This document shows, piece after piece, positions 3,846-37,545 of a stretch of DNA of 64,000 bases. Source of the stretch: Desulfosarcinaceae bacterium (GTDB lineage Bacteria > Desulfobacterota > Desulfobacteria > Desulfobacterales > Desulfosarcinaceae). The notes under the pieces were generated by a model. It ran no database searches, was not told where the DNA came from, and saw nothing but the letters and a program-made list of their open reading frames with translations. The position numbers were made by a program, and so were the translations under genes. The stretch spans positions 1 through 64,000 of the forward strand of contig JASJCL010000032.1 in the NCBI GenBank assembly GCA_030066015.1, written 5' to 3'. Position 1 is the first letter of the stretch. Every line of letters starts with the position of its first letter.

Positions 3846-5324
3846 CTAGCCGCATAGACACGGTTTGCGTGCGGCCAGGGTCTCGTCCAGGCGGCCCAGC
3901 TTGGGGTTGCGGGGCGCCTGGTGGAGCAGGTCGGGATGCTCCCGCGCCTCCTCGGCGATGGCCCGCATCGCCGCGATAAAGCGGTCCAGGGTCTCCTTGT
4001 TCTCCGATTCAGTGGGTTCGATCATGATGGCACCGTGGACCACCAGGGGGAAGTAGACCGTTGGTGGATGGAAGCCGTAGTCCATGAGGCGTTTGGCCAT
4101 ATCCAGGGTGGCCACCTTGTGCTGCTCCTGATACTTGTCGGTGAAGACGCACTCGTGCATACAGACGCGGTCGAAGGGCAGGTGGAAGACCTCCTTGAGG
4201 CTCTCCTTGATGTAGTTGGCGTTGAGCACGGCCAGCTGGCTGGCCTTCTTGAGAAAGGGCCCCATGCTGAGGACGTAGCTGTACGCCCGCACCAGAACGC
4301 CGAAGTTGCCGTAGAAGGCATGGACTTTGCCAACGCTCTGGGGATAGTCCTCGTCCCACCGGTAGGTGTCGCCCTCTTTGACCACCCGCGGCACGGGCAG
4401 GAAGGGACGCAGGGCCTCGGTGACGCATACCGGCCCGGCGCCGGGACCGCCGCCGCCGTGGGGCGTAGAGAAGGTCTTGTGCAGGTTGAGGTGCAGAACG
4501 TCCACGCCGACGTCGGCCATGTTGACGATGCCCATGACGGCATTCATGTTGGCCCCGTCGCCGTAGATGAGGCCGCCCTTGGCATGGATCACCTCGGCCA
4601 CCTCCTTGATGTTGTTTTCGAAGAGGCCCAAGGTATTGGGGTTGGTGATCATGATCCCGGCGGTGTCCTCGTCCATGAGCTCGTCCACCATCTCCGGGGT
4701 GAGGATGCCGTCCTCACCCGAGGCCAGGGGAATCGACTTGAAGCCGCACAGGGCGGCGCTGGCCGGGTTTGTGCCATGGGCGGTGTCGGGAATGAGGACC
4801 TTGTGGCGCGGCTTGCCTTGGGCCTTGTGGTAGGCGGCGAAGATCAACATGCCGGTCAGTTCGCCGTGGGAGCCCGCCGCTGGCTGCAGGCTGATGGCCG
4901 GCAGTCCGGTTACCTCGGCCAGGTAGCGCTCCAGGTCGTAGAGCAGTTTGAGGGCTCCCTGGCTGAGGCTTTCGGGCAGCAGGGGATGGGATCCGGCGAA
5001 GCCGGGCAGGGCCGCCTGACGCTCATTGATCTTGGGGTTGTACTTCATGGTGCAGGAGCCCAGGGGGTACATGTTGCTGTCGACCCCGAAATTCCACTGG
5101 GAGAGGCGTGTAAAGTGGCGCACCACGTCCAGTTCGCTGAGGTTGGGCCAGTCGGGGCCGTCGCCCACAAGTTCGCTGTCCAAGGGACTCATCAACACGT
5201 CGCTCTCCGGAACGCTCATGCCGCAGCGTCCTTCGGCGCCCTGCTCCCAGAGGAGGGGTTCGTTGAAGATCAGACCGGTGGTGCCGGTGGGCATCCAGGT
5301 GGTTTCTGAGGATGTGTGGCTCAT
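3846..5324 (-). CDS. gcvPB: Glycine dehydrogenase (decarboxylating) subunit 2
   Basis: This is the C-terminal half of the split P-protein of the glycine cleavage system, the PLP enzyme that decarboxylates glycine and passes the aminomethyl group to lipoylated GcvH. At 492 residues it has the usual length for the separate subunit. The PLP lysine is Lys283 in HLNLHKTFSTPHGGGGPG. TAHGTNPASA, YGDGANMNA and a MIEPTESE segment are family hallmarks. The ATG overlaps the gcvPA stop codon in an ATGA junction, so the two subunits are translationally coupled and presumably made in equal amounts. Confidence 0.96.
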   Translation of the reverse strand: MSHTSSETTWMPTGTTGLIFNEPLLWEQGAEGRCGMSVPESDVLMSPLDSELVGDGPDWPNLSELDVVRHFTRLSQWNFGVDSNMYPLGSCTMKYNPKINERQAALPGFAGSHPLLPESLSQGALKLLYDLERYLAEVTGLPAISLQPAAGSHGELTGMLIFAAYHKAQGKPRHKVLIPDTAHGTNPASAALCGFKSIPLASGEDGILTPEMVDELMDEDTAGIMITNPNTLGLFENNIKEVAEVIHAKGGLIYGDGANMNAVMGIVNMADVGVDVLHLNLHKTFSTPHGGGGPGAGPVCVTEALRPFLPVPRVVKEGDTYRWDEDYPQSVGKVHAFYGNFGVLVRAYSYVLSMGPFLKKASQLAVLNANYIKESLKEVFHLPFDRVCMHECVFTDKYQEQHKVATLDMAKRLMDYGFHPPTVYFPLVVHGAIMIEPTESENKETLDRFIAAMRAIAEEAREHPDLLHQAPRNPKLGRLDETLAARKPCLCG

Positions 5325-6655
5325 GCGCTCACCTCCTTGACGAGAAGATCCATGTCGCTCTTCGAGGCCGTCTCCGTGGCGCAGAAGAGGTAGTGGTCGG
5401 CCAGCTCTGGGTAGTAGGACGCGATGGGCAGACCGGCGACGATCCGTTTTTCCAGAAGGGCGTCCCGCCTCGCGGCGAAGCCCGCCGGCGCCTTGACCAC
5501 GAACTCGTTGAAGCTGGCGGCGGCGAAGGGCACTTCGAAGCCGGCGCCTTTCAAACCGGCCTTGAGGTACTCGGCCTTGTCGTGGTTGAGCTGCGCCAGA
5601 CCGCGGACGCAGGTGCCTCCTAGGGCGGCCATGTACATCACCGAGGCGGTGGCGCAGAGGCCCTGGTTGCTGCAGATATTGCTGGTGGCCCGCTCGCGGC
5701 GGATGTGCTGCTCGCGGGTGGAGAGGGTCAGCACGAAGCCCGACTTGCCGTCCACGTCCACGGTTTTGCCCACCAGACGACCGGGCATGTTGCGGACATA
5801 TTTCTGTTTCGCGGAGAACATCCCCAAGCCCGGTCCGCCGAAGCTGCGCGGAATTCCGAAGCTCTGGCCCTCGCCGCAGGCGATGTCGGCCCCCTGACTA
5901 CCGGGATTCTTCAGCAGTCCGTAGGCCAGCGGTTCACTGAAGCCGACCACGAAGAGGGTTTTCTTGTCGCTGTGGATGGTCTCTCCGATCTGCTTCAGAT
6001 CCTCGATGCAACCGAAGAAGTTGGGTGACTGCACCGCCACCCCGGCGATCTCCGACAAATCGCCCACAGCGGAGAGGTCGGTGCGTCCGTCAGCACCGAA
6101 GGGCAACTCTACCACCTCGAAGTCGGTGGGGGCGAAATAGGTGGCCACCACCTGGCGGTAGAGCGGATGGATCGCCTTGGAGACGACCACTTTCTTGCGC
6201 TTGGTGACCCGGATGCTCATGAGCAGTGCTTCCGCCAATGCTGAAGCGCCATCGTACATGGAGGCGTTGGTGACATCCATGCCCAGCAGACGGGTGACCA
6301 GGGTTTGATACTCGTAGATGGTCTGCAGGGTGCCCTGACTGATCTCCGGCTGATAGGGCGTGTAGGCGGTGAATATCTCCGAGCGCAGCAGCAGTTGCCG
6401 GCTGATTTCGGGGATGAAGTGGTCGTAGCTGCCCGCACCGATGTAGACCTTGTAGCGCGGTGCGGCGCCCATGGTATCGGCCAAGCCGTCCATGTGGGTA
6501 TTGAGGTCCCACTCGGTGAGGGGAGCGGGCAGGTCCAATTCGCCCTCTCGGCGACAGTTCGCGGGAATATCTTCGAACAGCTGATCGATACTCTCCGCGC
6601 CGACCAACGCCAACATCTGGGCGATGTCTTCACTTGTGTGCGGCAGATAGCGCAT
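5321..6655 (-). CDS. gcvPA: Glycine dehydrogenase (decarboxylating) subunit 1
   Basis: This is the N-terminal half of the split glycine decarboxylase. I start it at 6655 (MRYLPHTSEDI), which has an AAAGGA ribosome site and matches the family N-terminus; an upstream in-frame ATG adds eight unlikely residues. The 444-residue protein has the family sequence YTPYQPEISQGTLQ and the MYDGASALAEA segment. Subunit 1 has no PLP lysine, consistent with the split enzyme being a heterotetramer in which subunit 2 carries the cofactor. It is preceded by a repeat-containing spacer of 164 bases after gcvH. Confidence 0.95.
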   Translation of the reverse strand: MRYLPHTSEDIAQMLALVGAESIDQLFEDIPANCRREGELDLPAPLTEWDLNTHMDGLADTMGAAPRYKVYIGAGSYDHFIPEISRQLLLRSEIFTAYTPYQPEISQGTLQTIYEYQTLVTRLLGMDVTNASMYDGASALAEALLMSIRVTKRKKVVVSKAIHPLYRQVVATYFAPTDFEVVELPFGADGRTDLSAVGDLSEIAGVAVQSPNFFGCIEDLKQIGETIHSDKKTLFVVGFSEPLAYGLLKNPGSQGADIACGEGQSFGIPRSFGGPGLGMFSAKQKYVRNMPGRLVGKTVDVDGKSGFVLTLSTREQHIRRERATSNICSNQGLCATASVMYMAALGGTCVRGLAQLNHDKAEYLKAGLKGAGFEVPFAAASFNEFVVKAPAGFAARRDALLEKRIVAGLPIASYYPELADHYLFCATETASKSDMDLLVKEVSA

Positions 6656-6724
6656 CGTTCTATCCTTTCTTGCTTGCAACCGAGGCGTCGCTTTCAGGAA
6701 CAGCGGCGCCTACCCGATGGCGAT

Positions 6725-6783
6725 GGCCCCATGCCAACAGCTTGGGCCCCATGCCGGCGGCTTGGGCCCCATGCCAACGGGCA
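6725..6783. repeat. 20-base tandem repeat, about three copies, in the gcvH-gcvPA spacer
   Basis: Three copies of a unit close to GGGCCCCATGCCAACAGCTT follow each other at 6725-6743, 6744-6763 and 6764-6783. The middle copy has GGCGG in place of AACAG and the last copy diverges at its end. The array lies inside the gcv operon between two genes on the same strand, so it will be transcribed. No gene is encoded by it. Confidence 0.8.
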
Positions 6784-6795
6784 GTAGCTGCCCGT
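6777..6795. other. Perfect hairpin at the edge of the repeat
   Basis: ACGGGCAG and CTGCCCGT form an eight-base perfect stem around a three-base TAG loop. It begins in the last repeat copy. There is no T-run. In the gcv message it lies 25 bases after the gcvH stop codon and may protect the 3' end of the gcvH portion. Confidence 0.6.
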
Positions 6796-6819
6796 CGCCC
6801 TGAACACTGGGAATATGGG

Positions 6820-7218
6820 CTAGCCTTCCAGTGACGCCAGATAGGCACTCTTATCCATCAGTGCCTCGAACTCGGCCATATCGGCGATCTTGATCTTTAC
6901 CATCCAGCCGCCGCCGTACGGGGCGCTGTTGACCTGTTCGGGCGCGTCCTCCAATTCGGCGTTGATCTCCACAATCTCGCCGCCCAGGGGCATGTAGAGT
7001 TCCGAGACCGCTTTGACCGACTCCACCGAGCCGAACTCTTCACCCTTGTCGAAAGTACTGCCTGTCTCGGGCAGTTCCACGAAGACGATGTCGCCCAGCT
7101 GGTCCTGGGCGTAGTCGCTGATGCCGATGGTGGCCACATCGCCGTCAAGTTTGGCCCACTCATGGTCGTCGGTGTACTTCACATCTTCGGGCAGGTTCAG
7201 TTCATTGATCTCTTTCAT
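6820..7218 (-). CDS. gcvH: Glycine cleavage system H protein
   Basis: GcvH is the mobile lipoyl carrier that shuttles the aminomethyl intermediate between the P, T and L proteins. The 132-residue length is normal. The lipoylation site is Lys69 in FGSVESVKAVSELYMP, and the flanking GDIVFVELPETG and NSAPYGGGWMVKI are typical. It lies 61 bases after gcvT on the same strand. LipA, encoded further down the operon, would act on it. Confidence 0.97.
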   Translation of the reverse strand: MKEINELNLPEDVKYTDDHEWAKLDGDVATIGISDYAQDQLGDIVFVELPETGSTFDKGEEFGSVESVKAVSELYMPLGGEIVEINAELEDAPEQVNSAPYGGGWMVKIKIADMAEFEALMDKSAYLASLEG

Positions 7219-7279
7219 CCTCGTCCTCCTTGGGTGGGGTTCTGCTGCGATGATTAACGCGGGCAGAACAATGAATGGG

Positions 7280-8557
7280 TCACGCGCCGGTCCACATCTG
7301 CCCCATGGGTTTGCGGGCGGTGCGATCCGGGCGAATATCGGTGGTGATGGTGACCTGTATCTTGCGGCGGGCGTCTCGCAGCTCGATGGTCTCGCCCACT
7401 GGCAGCGGTTGGTTGACCTGGACGAAACCGCAGCTCAGGCCGCGGGGTTTGAAATCGGCCGGCTGATGCGGGCTGGCGATGCTCACGATCTCGCCGCCGG
7501 ACCAGCCGATCCCCATGTCGGTGGCACAGGTGAGGATGGCGCCGATGCGATTTCCCTGGCCGTCGTAAACCCCGGAGGCGTCGTCGCCGCTGGCGACCTT
7601 GCGCAGATCCTTGCCAACAAAAGCCAGCGTGTGGGGCGCGTCCGTGGCGTTGAGCAGGGCCTCGCTGCCGACAAAGCGTTTGCTGAAGCCGCCGTCGTCG
7701 TCATAGGGGAGGGCAAAGGGCCAGGGATGATTCACGAAGGGCCACGGCCCGATGTCCTGGTGGGAGAGGGGCAGCACGGCGCCTGCCCGCAGGCTGTCGC
7801 GGGCGGCCAGGCCGCAAGGCAGCAGACCGGCCGCACCGCCCACCTCGAGCACCATCTTCCAGAGCGTTTCGATTTGACCCGTGCCGATGAAGATTTCGAA
7901 GCCGAACTCCCCCGTATAGCCGGTGCGCGAGAGGAGCAGGGGCGTCCCGTTGGTCAGGGTCACCGCTTTCGCCTGGGCGACACTCGGGTCGAAGTGCCCC
8001 TTGAAGGAGAAGTAGGGCAGCCGGTCGAAAACGGTCTCCGGCGATGCCAGCAGCTGGGCCAGGATGTTGGCCGCCTGGGGTCCCTGGATATCCATCTTGG
8101 CAACCCGGTCGGTAAGGTCCGCCACCGCGGCGTTGCGACCCGCCAAATGCCCCTCGAGGTGTTCGGCGATCTGGGCACCCATACCGGCGTTGACCACAAT
8201 GAAGAAATCGTCCGCGCTGACCTGGAAGACGATGGCGTCGTCGATCACATGGCCCGCTGCGTTGAGAAAGGCGCCGTAAACACAGCGGCCGTCGGCCAGG
8301 GGCATTTTCCGGGGTCCGATACAGGCTGCCAAATCATTGGTGAAGCAGTGCTGCAACAGGGCGACGGCGTCTGGGCCGCTCACGGTCACGGCCGCCATGT
8401 GGCTGGTATCGAAAATGCCCGCGCCGGTGAGGACGGCCAGGTGTTCGTTTTTCACCGAGGAGTACCAGAGGGGCATTTCGTAGCCGCCGAAGTCGGCCAT
8501 GTTGGCTCCACGGGCGACATGCCAGCCGTGTAAGGGGGTTTTTTTAGGGGCAGTCAT
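7280..8557 (-). CDS. gcvT: Aminomethyltransferase (glycine cleavage T protein)
   Basis: GcvT takes the methylene group from aminomethyl-GcvH, releases ammonia and forms 5,10-methylene-tetrahydrofolate. The 425-residue protein is somewhat longer than the roughly 365 residues of E. coli GcvT. It starts with the family sequence TPLHGWHVARGANMADFGGYEMPLWY and has the GIFDTSHMAAVTVSG segment and a LLLSRTGYTGEFGFEIF motif in the folate-binding domain. The ATG at 8557 has an AGGAGG ribosome site. It follows the Lrp-type regulator by 152 bases and heads gcvT-gcvH-gcvPA-gcvPB. I saw no glycine riboswitch in that gap. Confidence 0.95.
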   Translation of the reverse strand: MTAPKKTPLHGWHVARGANMADFGGYEMPLWYSSVKNEHLAVLTGAGIFDTSHMAAVTVSGPDAVALLQHCFTNDLAACIGPRKMPLADGRCVYGAFLNAAGHVIDDAIVFQVSADDFFIVVNAGMGAQIAEHLEGHLAGRNAAVADLTDRVAKMDIQGPQAANILAQLLASPETVFDRLPYFSFKGHFDPSVAQAKAVTLTNGTPLLLSRTGYTGEFGFEIFIGTGQIETLWKMVLEVGGAAGLLPCGLAARDSLRAGAVLPLSHQDIGPWPFVNHPWPFALPYDDDGGFSKRFVGSEALLNATDAPHTLAFVGKDLRKVASGDDASGVYDGQGNRIGAILTCATDMGIGWSGGEIVSIASPHQPADFKPRGLSCGFVQVNQPLPVGETIELRDARRKIQVTITTDIRPDRTARKPMGQMWTGA

Positions 8558-8709
8558 TGGTTGGGCCCTCCTGTTTTGGGTTGAGGCTTCTCGTGCCAGG
8601 CGCTGCCAGCGGGATGCCGTGGTTTGTCGACCAACGGGCTTGCTGGGTCGGCACGCTGAGGGTGCGCGGCGGCAGCGGTTTAGCCGAAAACGTATGGAGA
8701 CCAGGGCCC

Positions 8710-9153
8710 CTACAGCAGGTAGGGAGCTCGCAAGTTGTACCCCTTATAGACGACGAAGGTTTCCACGGCCTGGATTCCGTCGATGCGGGAGACCTCATCA
8801 TTGTAAAACTCCAGCAGACCGAAGCCCTCCTTGAGCAGCACCTGCAGCATGAGGTCGAAGCGCCCCGTGACCACCGATACCGAGACGATGCCCCGCAGGT
8901 TGACAAACTCCTTGCCCTTTTGCACCAGGTTCATGGTGTTGAGCTTCACCCCGATGAAGACCATGGTGTGGCCGGGGAGCCCTTCGGGATCGACCATGCC
9001 GATGATGTTGAGGATCCCCTCCTCTTTCAGGCGATTGACCCGGGCGCGAACGGTGTTCTCGGCCAGTGCCAGATCGTCGGCGATCTCCTTGTAGGATTTG
9101 CGGCCGTCCTTCAGGTGGCGTAAAATGGCGATGGTGGTCGCATCGATCTTCAT
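8710..9153 (-). CDS. Lrp/AsnC family transcriptional regulator, probably of glycine cleavage
   Basis: This 147-residue protein has an AsnC-type winged helix at about residues 5-55 (SYKEIADDLALAENTVRARVNRLKEEGIL) and a C-terminal RAM (amino-acid sensing) domain. It is the first gene of the strand that carries the gcv genes and is divergent from dihydrolipoyl dehydrogenase. The location suggests that it senses an amino acid, perhaps glycine, and controls both directions from the AT-rich region 9154-9461; this is inference from context and from E. coli, where Lrp activates gcv. Confidence 0.88.
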   Translation of the reverse strand: MKIDATTIAILRHLKDGRKSYKEIADDLALAENTVRARVNRLKEEGILNIIGMVDPEGLPGHTMVFIGVKLNTMNLVQKGKEFVNLRGIVSVSVVTGRFDLMLQVLLKEGFGLLEFYNDEVSRIDGIQAVETFVVYKGYNLRAPYLL

Positions 9154-9461: not shown

Positions 9462-10901
9462 ATGACATCCAAGATTGCCATTCTCGGTGGGGGACCCGGT
9501 GGATACGTGGCCGCAGTGAGGGCCGCCCAGCGCGGGGCCGCAGTGACCTTGATCGAAAAAGAACGCGTCGGAGGGACCTGTCTCAACTGGGGCTGCATTC
9601 CCTCGAAGATCATGAAGACCACGGCTGAACTGATCAGCCACATGCGCCAGGCCAAGGCCTATGGCATCAGCGGAGCGGGTGAAGTGGCCGCCGACATGGT
9701 GGCGCTCATGGCGCGCAAGGAGAAGATCCTGCAGACCCAGGCCAAGGGGATCGAAGGGCTGCTGGCCCATCACAAGATCAATTTAATCATGGGCGAAGGC
9801 CGCATCAGCGCTCCCGGCGAGCTGCAGGTGGCAAGGGCCGAAGGGGGCTCGGAGACAGTGGCTTGGGACAAGCTCATCATCGCCACCGGCACGATTCCGC
9901 TGAACATCCCGGCCTTCCCCTTCGATGGCGAGCGCATTCTCTCCAGCAACGACGCCCTCTGCTTGACCGCAGTACCGTCCTCCATCGTGATCGTGGGCGG
10001 CGGCGTTATCGGCTGCGAGTTTGCCTCTATTTTGGCCGCCATGGGCAGCCGCGTGACGGTGGTCGAGGCCCTGGATCGGCTCCTGCCACTGCCCTCGGTG
10101 GACGCGGCTTGCTCCAAGCACCTCCAGCGAGAGATGAAAAAGCGCAAAATTGCCTTCATGGTAAAGCGCACTGTGGAGCGGGTCGAAAAACGGGGCGACG
10201 ACCTCGCTGTAACGGTCGGCCCCTCACCCTTCGTGGACGCCGAACGCCTGACCCCGAAAGAGCGCGAACCCCTGGAGATCGCGGCAGAGAAGGTCCTCGT
10301 CTGTATCGGTCGCTCTCCCCTGAGTGGCGCGATTGGCCTTGAGAAGATTGGCGTGGCCTGCGACGAACGTGGCTGGATCGTCGCCGATGCGGGTCTGCGG
10401 ACCAACGTTTCCGGGGTATACGCCATCGGCGATATTCTGGGACCGGAACGGGTGATGCTGGCCCACGTGGCCTCGGCCGAAGGCCTGGTGGCCGCCGAGA
10501 ACGCCACCGGCGGCGATGCGAAGATGGACTATCGGGCCGTGCCAGGGGCCATCTTCACCATCCCCGAGGTGGGCAATGTGGGGCTCACCGAGGCCCAGGC
10601 GCGTGAAGCCGGCATGGATGTGCGCGCAGACAGCGTCCTGCTGCGCACCCTGGGCAAGGCCCAGGCGATGGGCGAATTGGCCGGCGAGGCCAAGCTCGTT
10701 TCCGAACGGGGGAGCGGACGAATCCTCGGGGTCCATATCGTGGGCGCCCACGCCACCGACCTCATCGCCGAGGGGGGGCTGGCGGTCCACAACGGGCTCA
10801 CCGTGGATCAGGTCGCCGACACCATCCACGCCCATCCCACCCTGGGAGAGGCGATGCTGGAGGTGAGCCTCAAGGCCATGGACATGGCCCTGCACGGTTA
10901 G
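9462..10901 (+). CDS. lpdA: Dihydrolipoyl dehydrogenase (L protein)
   Basis: This flavoprotein reoxidises dihydrolipoyl groups with NAD+. The 479-residue protein begins with the FAD dinucleotide-binding GGGPGGY motif and has the redox disulfide GTCLNWGCIPSK (Cys40 and Cys45), a second nucleotide-binding VIVGGGVIGCEFAS motif, and the C-terminal IHAHPTLGEA active-site histidine segment. It is divergent from the gcv operon, so the L protein for glycine cleavage is encoded right beside T, H and P. The ATG has a GGGGAGG ribosome site. The same enzyme could also serve 2-oxoacid dehydrogenases. Confidence 0.95.
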   Translation: MTSKIAILGGGPGGYVAAVRAAQRGAAVTLIEKERVGGTCLNWGCIPSKIMKTTAELISHMRQAKAYGISGAGEVAADMVALMARKEKILQTQAKGIEGLLAHHKINLIMGEGRISAPGELQVARAEGGSETVAWDKLIIATGTIPLNIPAFPFDGERILSSNDALCLTAVPSSIVIVGGGVIGCEFASILAAMGSRVTVVEALDRLLPLPSVDAACSKHLQREMKKRKIAFMVKRTVERVEKRGDDLAVTVGPSPFVDAERLTPKEREPLEIAAEKVLVCIGRSPLSGAIGLEKIGVACDERGWIVADAGLRTNVSGVYAIGDILGPERVMLAHVASAEGLVAAENATGGDAKMDYRAVPGAIFTIPEVGNVGLTEAQAREAGMDVRADSVLLRTLGKAQAMGELAGEAKLVSERGSGRILGVHIVGAHATDLIAEGGLAVHNGLTVDQVADTIHAHPTLGEAMLEVSLKAMDMALHG

Positions 10902-10972: not shown

Positions 10973-11001
10973 TTGACACCCATGCGCCACTCGCTTAAAA
11001 A
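10973..11001 (+). promoter_or_regulatory. Promoter of the trp attenuator and trpB2
   Basis: A consensus -35 box TTGACA (10973-10978) is followed after 17 bases by TAAAAA (10996-11001). Transcription should start near 11008, which would make the leader peptide nearly leaderless if it starts at the ATG at 11009. Confidence 0.6.
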
Positions 11002-11002
11002 A

Positions 11003-11095
11003 ATGGCTATGGAGCCTTCAGCCCTGCATACCACTTGTCTCTTCACCAACGGCAACTGGTGGTGGTGCCACGGGGCGGAGGTGCACCGCTGGTAA
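11003..11095 (+). CDS. trpL: trp leader peptide (attenuator peptide)
   Basis: A short frame of up to 30 codons runs from ATG at 11003 (or ATG at 11009) to TAA at 11093-11095. It contains three consecutive Trp codons at 11057-11065 and a fourth Trp codon directly before the stop. Tryptophan is the rarest amino acid, so WWW in a short ORF directly ahead of a tryptophan synthase gene is a textbook attenuation signal. The start is uncertain: no strong ribosome site precedes either ATG, and a CTG at 11024 lies nine bases after a GGAG. The ribosome stalled on the Trp codons would leave 11073-11083 free for the antiterminator. Confidence 0.85.
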   Translation: MAMEPSALHTTCLFTNGNWWWCHGAEVHRW

Positions 11096-11127
11096 CGCCA
11101 GCCTGAAGGAAGCCACCTCGAAAGCCC
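11073..11127 (+). promoter_or_regulatory. Antiterminator pairing of the trp attenuator
   Basis: GGGC (11073-11076) and GAGGTG (11078-11083) can pair with CACCTC (11114-11119) and GCCC (11124-11127). The right arm takes up bases needed for the 5' side of the terminator (11121-11131), so the two structures exclude each other. A small hairpin GCTGG/CCAGC (11088-11092 / 11098-11102) fits inside. A ribosome that reaches the stop codon at 11093 would cover the left arm and so favour termination. The pairing was read by eye; no folding energy was computed. Confidence 0.65.
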
Positions 11128-11154
11128 GCTGTCGACACGCAGCGGGCTTTTTTT
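11121..11154 (+). terminator. Attenuator terminator upstream of trpB2
   Basis: AAAGCCCGCTG (11121-11131) and CAGCGGGCTTT (11140-11150) form a perfect 11-base stem with an eight-base loop, followed by an uninterrupted T-run through 11154. It lies between the leader peptide and trpB2 on the same strand, where a terminator makes sense only as a regulatory element. Confidence 0.9.
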
Positions 11155-11200
11155 GGTTAACGGCCCCGCGAGTACGTGAATTGGAAAAGGAGGAACGCCC

Positions 11201-12577
11201 ATGGCCCCCAAGTGTATTCTGCTGCCCCGTGACGAGATGCCGCGCCAATGGTACAATGTGCTGGCCGACATCAAATTGAACCCTCCCCTCGGCCCCGACG
11301 GCAACCCGGTTTCGCCGGATATGCTGGCCCCAGTATTCCCCATGAACCTCATCGAACAAGAGGTCAGCCAGGAGCGCTGGATCGACATCCCCGAGCCGGT
11401 GCTGGACGTTCTCAGCATCTGGCGCCCCAGCCCCCTGATCCGCGCCGACCGTTTCGAGAAGGCCTTGGGCACGCCGGCCAAGATCTACTACAAGCATGAA
11501 GGGGTCAGCCCTCCTGGGAGCCACAAACCCAATACCGCCGTGCCGCAGGCTTACTACAACAAAGAGTTCGGCATCGAGAATATGACCACCGAGACCGGCG
11601 CCGGCCAGTGGGGCAGCGCCCTCAGCTTTGCCTGTTCCCAGTTTGGACTGAACTGCAAGGTTTACATGGTCCGGGTGAGCTTCGACCAGAAACCGTATCG
11701 CAAGGCGATGATGGAGACCTGGGGCGGCCAGTGCGTGGCCAGTCCCAGCGAGGAGACCAAGGCCGGCCGCGATGCCCTGGCCAAGGATCCCAACACGCCG
11801 GGCAGCCTGGGAATCGCCATCAGCGAGGCGATTGAAGCCGCCGTCTCCGACGAAAGCGGCAAAACGCGGTATAGTTTGGGGAGCGTGCTCAACCACGTCA
11901 TGCTTCACCAGACCATCATCGGCCTGGAGGCCAGGCAACAATTCGCCATGATCGACGCCTATCCAGACGTCGTCATCGGTTGCGCCGGCGGCGGCAGCAA
12001 CTTTGCCGGTCTGGCCTTCCCCTTTGTGAGCGACAAGATCAACGGCAAGGAGATCGCCATTTACCCGGTGGAACCGGCCGCCTGTCCCACCATGACCAGG
12101 GCCCCCTTCGTCTATGACCACGGCGACACCGCCGGCTACACGCCCCTGCTGCCCATGCACAGCCTGGGGCACAACTTCGTACCGCCTCCCATCCACGCCG
12201 GCGGGCTGCGCTACCATGGCATGGCGCCCACCGTGAGCCAACTGGTGGACGAGGGGCTTCTCACGCCCAAGGCAGTTACCCAGACCCAGGCCTACAAGGC
12301 CGGTCTGCTGTGGGCCCGCACGGAGGGATTCATCCCGGCCCCGGAAACCACCAACGCCCTGGCGGCCGTGGTGGAGGAGGCCAACCGCGCCAAGGAAGAG
12401 GGCAAGGAAAAAATTATCGTGGCCAATTTCAGCGGCCACGGCCTGCTCGACCTGGGCGCTTACGAGCGCTTCCTCTCTGGCGAGATCAATGACGTGGTCT
12501 TCGAAGACACCATTATCGAGGACGCCAACGCTCTCTTCGCCGAGTACCCGAAACCCGCAAGCCTCAAGAGCGTTTAA
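11201..12577 (+). CDS. trpB: Tryptophan synthase beta chain, TrpB2 type
   Basis: This 458-residue PLP enzyme joins indole and serine to make tryptophan. It is longer than classical TrpB (about 400 residues) and starts with the TrpB2-type N-terminus ([18 protein letters not shown]). The PLP lysine is Lys109 in [20 protein letters not shown] gives the conserved catalytic glutamate, and [11 protein letters not shown] the phosphate-binding loop. No trpA lies beside it, typical for TrpB2, which is thought to use free indole or act as a second TrpB. The strong AAAGGAGG ribosome site fixes the start. The upstream attenuator predicts induction under tryptophan shortage. Confidence 0.95.
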
Positions 12578-12579
12578 GC

Positions 12580-12843
12580 ATGCGGCCTGACGATCGTGAG
12601 CGACGCTGTCCCCGCATCGGCGGTCCCGTGAGCTTCGCTTACTGCCGCCGCAGTGGCGAGGGAGACGGCTATTGTTTCAAGGTGCTGGACTGCTGGTGGG
12701 AGATCTTCGATGTGGAGCGGCACCTCCGTGAAACCCTATCGGAGGTGCAGCTGGCGGCATTGGCGGCCAAGCGCCCCAAGCCCAAGGTCACCAGCCTCGT
12801 GGAGATGATTGCCGCCGCGCAACAGCGCTGTAAGCGTGACTGA
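12580..12843 (+). CDS. Small Cys-rich protein coupled to trpB2
   Basis: This 87-residue protein starts two bases after the trpB2 stop codon, so it is probably co-transcribed and translationally coupled. Four cysteines (Cys10, Cys22, Cys32, Cys38) are arranged as CPRxG...YCR...YC...DCWW and could bind zinc or an iron-sulfur cluster. The C-terminal half looks helical and basic. I do not recognise a characterised family. The position behind an attenuated trpB2 gives it the same tryptophan-dependent control. Confidence 0.7.
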   Translation: MRPDDRERRCPRIGGPVSFAYCRRSGEGDGYCFKVLDCWWEIFDVERHLRETLSEVQLAALAAKRPKPKVTSLVEMIAAAQQRCKRD

Positions 12844-37276: not shown

Positions 37277-37337
37277 AGTCTCCCTGTTTCATCCGTTGGA
37301 TCTGTGGGCGCACCACTCTCCACGAGGCACGCCACAG

Positions 37338-37545
37338 CGAGGCCGGCAGGTTTTCTGACTTCCCGGCAGGGTCGGCGACCTTCCCATTTCTCAGCGAAAC
37401 AGTGGTTTGTGTGTGCCGACTCTGTTCCCAGCGACGCGTGGGTCGCTGGGCCGGGTTACAGCGGCGGGTCCGTCCCCGATTTGCACGGGGTTCCCTCAGC
37501 GGTTCACCCTATCCGTGAAACGCCGCTCCTTACAGGAGCACCTGT
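37338..37545 (-). ncRNA. Cobalamin riboswitch
   Basis: Read on the minus strand this holds the standard cobalamin-riboswitch elements in order: GGGTGAACCGCTGAGGGAA, then GTGCAAATCGGGGACGG, then the B12-box-like CCCGCCGCTGTAACC, a variable stem GCCCAGCGACC...GTCGCTGGG, and the closing CCGGGAAGTCAGAAAACCTG with the GCCGG end. The consensus GCCACTG of the B12 box appears as GCCGCTG. It precedes the BtuB-like receptor and faces the same direction. The exact ends are approximate. Confidence 0.93.

Follow-up and report, generated by a model that had tools for sequence, protein, structure and literature searches.

The window analyzed here is a 64,000 nucleotide stretch of a Desulfosarcinaceae bacterium (assembly GCA_030066015.1, contig JASJCL010000032.1, positions 1 to 64,000 of the forward strand). 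Between its lpd gene, which ends at 10901, and the ATG of trpB2 lie a promoter, a short leader ORF that contains a run of tryptophan codons and an intrinsic terminator, and trpB2 itself is followed by a small Cys-rich gene (Table 1). Further upstream (5321-9153) the translations indicate gcvP-, gcvH- and gcvT-like glycine cleavage genes and an Lrp/AsnC-like regulator, beside lpd. In relatives, lpd was not found adjoining trpB2, and in many of the close ones we read a nusB-like gene directly 5' of trpB2. The leader matches no Rfam model, Trp_leader included, at gathering or permissive thresholds; within the window Rfam identifies a single element, a cobalamin riboswitch at 37328-37543 on the reverse strand.

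Table 1. Features of the trpB2 locus, in window positions.
Feature	Position	Strand	Remarks
sigma-70-type promoter	10973-11001	+	TTGACA 10973-10978, 17 nt spacer, TAAAAA 10996-11001
leader ORF, MEPSALHTTCLFTNGNWWWCHGAEVHRW then stop	11009-11095	+	28 codons; probably leaderless
three-Trp-codon regulatory run, TGGTGGTGG	11057-11065	+	read from sequence
fourth Trp codon, TGG	11090-11092	+	immediately 5' of stop TAA 11093-11095
antiterminator 5' strand, CGGGGCGGAGGTG	11071-11083	+	predicted pairing with 11114-11128 on stall at Trp codon 1
antiterminator 3' strand	11114-11128	+	predicted; overlaps terminator foot
intrinsic terminator	11121-11155	+	hairpin 11121-11150, 12 pairs, -20.6 kcal/mol, then U tract
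trpB2, TrpB-like PLP enzyme (TIGR01415 / NF009057)	11201-12577	+	ATG 11201 behind AAGGAGG
small unnamed gene	12580-12843	+	87 aa, four invariant Cys, DCWW motif; conserved trpB2 partner

The first-pass annotation of this DNA had described a consensus-like promoter, three consecutive Trp codons with a fourth before the stop, and an intrinsic terminator, and all three can be read directly from the sequence. The -10 element is a poor one (4/6 match to TATAAT) and the transcription start is a predicted one; a perfect TTGACA is also found 5' of the other trpB2 leaders inspected in Desulfobacterales. The leader start, which the first-pass annotation had not specified, is most likely ATG 11009, 7 nt past the -10 and at or beside the predicted transcription start, while the alternative in-frame ATG at 11003 would sit upstream of that start. 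Since eight other trpB2 leaders (L069, L106, L018, L024, L027, L010, L042 and L025) have their ATG 8-11 nt past the best-scoring predicted -10, it is likely that many trpB2 leader ORFs, including the one in the window, are leaderless or nearly so. In L311 the ATG was judged by eye to be similarly close to the -10.

Of 200 dinucleotide shuffles, 199 fold less well than the whole leader (z -2.8), and the terminator begins 28 nt past the leader stop, out of reach of a ribosome positioned there. The first-pass annotation had also proposed an antiterminator, formed by pairing of 11073-11083 with 11114-11127, that competes with the 5' arm of the terminator. In our stall model, where the ribosome reaches 14 nt downstream as counted from the first A-site base, antiterminating folds do arise for a stall at Trp codon 1 or 2. 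They are weaker than had been proposed, as the stable helix GAGGTG/CACCTC (11078-11083 with 11114-11119) lies just 5' of the terminator and, with a stall at Trp codon 1, only about 4 pairs (11071-11076 with 11124-11128) occupy terminator-arm bases. A stall at codon 2 gives a different fold that captures 7-9 of these bases, and the fold predicted for codon 3 captures none. In the ensemble, 4.2/13 terminator-arm bases are pre-paired at Trp1 and 7.2/13 at Trp2, and no more than about one with the ribosome at Trp3, at Trp4 or at the stop (1.3/13 in the last case); E. coli trpL, treated in the same way as a control, gives 5.0/9 when stalled vs 0.3 at the stop. Against shuffled spacers the leaders L163, L173, L119 and L069 pass (0-5/200), as does E. 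coli trpL (3/200). The window antiterminator, weak by itself, is plausible rather than proven because 29/200 shuffled spacers do equally well, which is not significant alone.

The decisive evidence for the proposed attenuation of trpB2 is comparative, namely its recurrence and its enrichment over controls. By scanning for ORFs of 8-45 codons that contain a run of three identical residues and are followed by a terminator, we found a WWW leader with a terminator upstream of 7/139 distinct trpB2 genes in Desulfobacterales (L001, which is the window, L041, L163, L119, L106, L069 and L173). The type strain Desulfatibacillum alkenivorans DSM 16219 (L062/L119) shares the arrangement. The combination was found in 0/1930 control regions of 500 nt, taken from the window and the same loci, and in none of ten shuffled sets; Fisher's test gives p of about 5e-9 for 7/139 vs 0/1930, with controls that are mostly coding. 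Runs of other residues occur 0-3 times each, and Trp is the commonest run among trpB2 leaders. The L041 leader (WWWW) is doubtful because its sole start codon is CTG, with no ATG, GTG or TTG. The single-Trp leaders L010, L042 and L025 and the spaced-Trp leaders L018, L024 and L027, though right-looking, were left out of the strict count because they do not reach significance against shuffles, and L195 (WW), an ambiguous case, was put aside. A broader search for TGGTGG was uninformative (227 matches vs 193 in the reversed control).

Elsewhere in the phylum Desulfobacterota, outside Desulfobacterales, 16 of 48 trpB2 loci carry a WWW leader and terminator, in a sample that was drawn via the small Cys-rich gene and is hence non-random; the count includes one f84 case with a different terminator geometry, and the loci fall in families f135, f102, f82, f154, f138, f92, f124 and f84. 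Altogether, a Trp leader with a terminator on trpB2 recurs in at least 13 families. The Trp-codon run that was to be looked for upstream of related trpB2 genes is therefore present in part of them, and the majority of close relatives from the same family have no Trp leader at all. Because of this absence the switch appears patchy within the order, and it seems to be common elsewhere in the phylum. On the TrpB2 tree the Trp-leader trait needs at least 6 changes for the strict set or 8 for the wide set, with gains and losses indistinguishable, which points to a switch that was gained or lost repeatedly. In seven leaders of f102 and f135, of the form WWWxxxxxVCP-stop, the terminating helices are paired in 95% of cells, and 0/500 shuffles reach their covariation score; the antiterminating helices, which exclude the terminating ones, are paired in 99% of cells (33-55% when slid). 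Both alternative structures thus appear to be conserved in this seven-sequence set. In the f84 leaders L315, L313, L309 and L310 the terminator starts about 10 nt past the stop or overlaps it, and with this geometry the terminator would be unable to form while a ribosome occupies the stop, the reverse of the classical logic.

The same genome contains an intact trpEGDCFBA operon (contig C70), which has its own leader, MSRLQTPAAMHIHTGRFWWWQANL followed by a stop, and terminators. WW-containing leaders are located upstream of 23/30 trpE genes in Desulfobacterales, and therefore the trp operon is as a rule attenuated in the order. The pattern TGGTGGTGG-N65-95-TTTTT has eight matches in the genome, where those of trpE and trpB2 are the two convincing attenuators. 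Among the other matches to a WWW leader with terminator, L233 was rejected as antisense within a gene and L231 as lying inside an 875-aa ORF, and the remaining four pattern matches, judged from sequence alone, read like coding sequence. Directly 5' of the trp operon attenuator (L113:1004-6108) there is a cluster encoding a CoA ligase and a 2-hydroxyacyl-CoA / benzoyl-CoA-type dehydratase with its activase. The suggestion that TrpB2 is a tryptophan-shortage enzyme gains support from this genome, because its trp operon carries a WWW attenuator of its own.

The TrpB2 protein of the window scores above the curated cut-offs of TIGR01415 (613 vs 519 bits) and NF009057 (694 vs 366 bits). Its GSHK motif, with the PLP lysine, and its ETGAGQWG motif, with the catalytic glutamate, are intact, as they are in 137/137 TrpB2 sequences. 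Downstream of trpB2, 88/101 loci carry a homologue of the small gene, and across the phylum the two are linked in 27/30 loci; the small gene is present in 89/95 genomes with trpB2 vs 3/21 without it (p about 3e-13). All of 60 sequences compared share four cysteines (Cys10, Cys22, Cys32 and Cys38) and the DCWW motif. Pfam and NCBIfam have no family for the protein, with stray single-member matches only, and PDB sequence and fold searches gave no match, the top results being noise; AlphaFold models it with fair confidence (pLDDT 87, pTM 0.66). Judged by the conserved adjacency, TrpB2 has a genuine, unnamed partner in the small Cys-rich gene.

Based on these data we propose that the unit of trpB2 and the small Cys-rich gene is, very probably, controlled by ribosome-mediated transcription attenuation that senses charged tRNA-Trp, which would most likely place trpB2 in the tryptophan-starvation regulon. 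When tryptophan is ample, the ribosome would translate the leader to the stop at 11093 and mask about 11078-11106, including the antiterminator 5' strand, and the terminator at 11121-11155 would then end transcription before trpB2. When tryptophan is scarce, we infer a ribosome stall at Trp codon 1 or 2. Pairing of 11114-11128 with the RNA from about 11071 onward would then occupy the terminator foot, and RNA polymerase would continue into trpB2. TrpB2 could then convert indole, free or salvaged, to tryptophan, in coordination with the trpEGDCFBA operon and its separate attenuator; here it is indole as the substrate that we infer.

One question that should be asked is whether the leader is a spurious Trp-rich ORF of chance origin in a GC-rich sequence, and the terminator behind it belongs to the upstream gene. 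The codon run TGGTGGTGG is indeed frequent, with 568 sites in the genome, the window antiterminator does not stand out from its shuffled spacers, and in the interval between lpd and trpB2 no terminator other than that at 11121-11155 was found. Yet a promoter is present between lpd and the leader, and the combination is missing from the control regions, which are mostly coding, and returns in family after family, which makes a chance origin very improbable. Another option is an arrest similar to that of TnaC, in which free tryptophan in excess would halt translation at the leader's end and trpB2 would be switched on when tryptophan is plentiful. Several trpB2 leaders do end with Pro-stop, and the f84 geometry is such that a stop-positioned ribosome could act in this way. 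However, the window leader ends HRW-stop, without Pro, and its terminator lies beyond a ribosome at that position; base pairing accounts for the Pro-stop nucleotides in the f102/f135 set, and the biosynthetic trp operon has the same WWW design. In TnaC the Trp-to-Pro spacing is 12 residues, and this spacing is not seen. We therefore regard an arrest of this type as very improbable, and attenuation by charged tRNA-Trp as the preferred reading.

Even if the attenuation is correct, TrpB2 may have a role other than indole salvage, for instance as a reserve beta subunit serving the trp operon, or in a reaction of serine or O-phosphoserine. The genome of the window encodes both trpA and trpB1, the neighbors of trpB2 include the glycine-cleavage-like and lipoamide dehydrogenase genes, and a serine deaminase role was proposed for TrpB2 in a paper that also reports poor activity (PMC1854888). 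On the other hand, eight genomes (G003, G032, G036, G057, G085, G089, G090 and G093), five of them at least 95% complete, keep trpB2 with no detectable trpE, trpA, trpB1 or trpC (IGPS). It is possible that these are indole-dependent tryptophan users. In two of the eight, G090 (L041) and G003 (L042), trpB2 is preceded by a Trp-codon leader and terminator, with the doubtful start codon of L041 and the single Trp codon of L042. In addition, TrpB2 is termed indole-scavenging in a Geobacter genome paper (PMC2700814), and the TrpB2 of T. kodakarensis is reported, in a title cited in PMC11085991, to have a role in tryptophan synthesis and indole salvage. In our opinion a role outside salvage is rather unlikely, and salvage of indole, which the first-pass annotation had offered as a perhaps, is plausible and is supported indirectly because of these eight genomes.

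A more tentative idea is that trpB2 and the four-Cys protein form a tryptophan-starvation module, in which the small protein might be a dedicated partner (for instance a metal- or redox-binding activator in place of TrpA, or a regulator) and attenuation may have been acquired several times independently. The conserved unnamed gene that travels with trpB2 is the obvious candidate for a partner protein. The presence of a tryptophan-starvation switch in many families, together with the trpB2-only genomes, argues that TrpB2, whose physiological role is unsettled in the literature consulted, is a working enzyme of tryptophan supply, and makes this idea directly testable.

Attenuation by tryptophan had been taken by the first-pass annotation to be known for whole trp operons, and this part has to be qualified, as smaller targets are known: S. 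meliloti trpE(G), Streptomyces trpS and C. diphtheriae trpB2A. Its extension to a stand-alone trpB2 is supported by the recurrence and by the conserved alternative structures described above. A literature search for such attenuation yielded just the actinobacterial trpB2A, and no report was found of a Trp attenuator on TrpB2_o or of the small partner gene. In Actinobacteria, Trp attenuators were predicted for Corynebacterium and Streptomyces trp, for trpS2 and for C. diphtheriae trpB2A (PMC1262725), and as in the window the targets include split trp loci and single genes. However, the C. diphtheriae 'trpB2' is probably a second trpB1-type gene, because it is located in a trpBA pair, unlike the stand-alone COG1350 / TIGR01415 type of the window. 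The window gene resembles the stand-alone TrpB paralogue TrpB2_o (COG1350; PMC1854888), which likewise lies away from a trp operon that carries a trpB1 of its own. With Sinorhizobium meliloti trpL the window shares Trp attenuation of only a part of the pathway, although there the target is trpE(G) and the organism is alphaproteobacterial; the S. meliloti trpL ORF starts at the first transcript nucleotide (PMC7298713), a precedent for a leaderless leader. The likeness to E. coli trpL includes the Trp-codon leader, a stop codon from which a ribosome would mask the predicted antiterminator strand, the terminator before the structural gene and the logic that emerges from the stall calculation, whereas the window leader is probably leaderless, has a weaker antiterminator and no Rfam model match, and its target is a stand-alone trpB2 with a small gene instead of trpEDCBA. 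The mechanism is thus of a known kind, and what is new is the stand-alone trpB2 as its target, its wide and patchy spread, and the unnamed partner.
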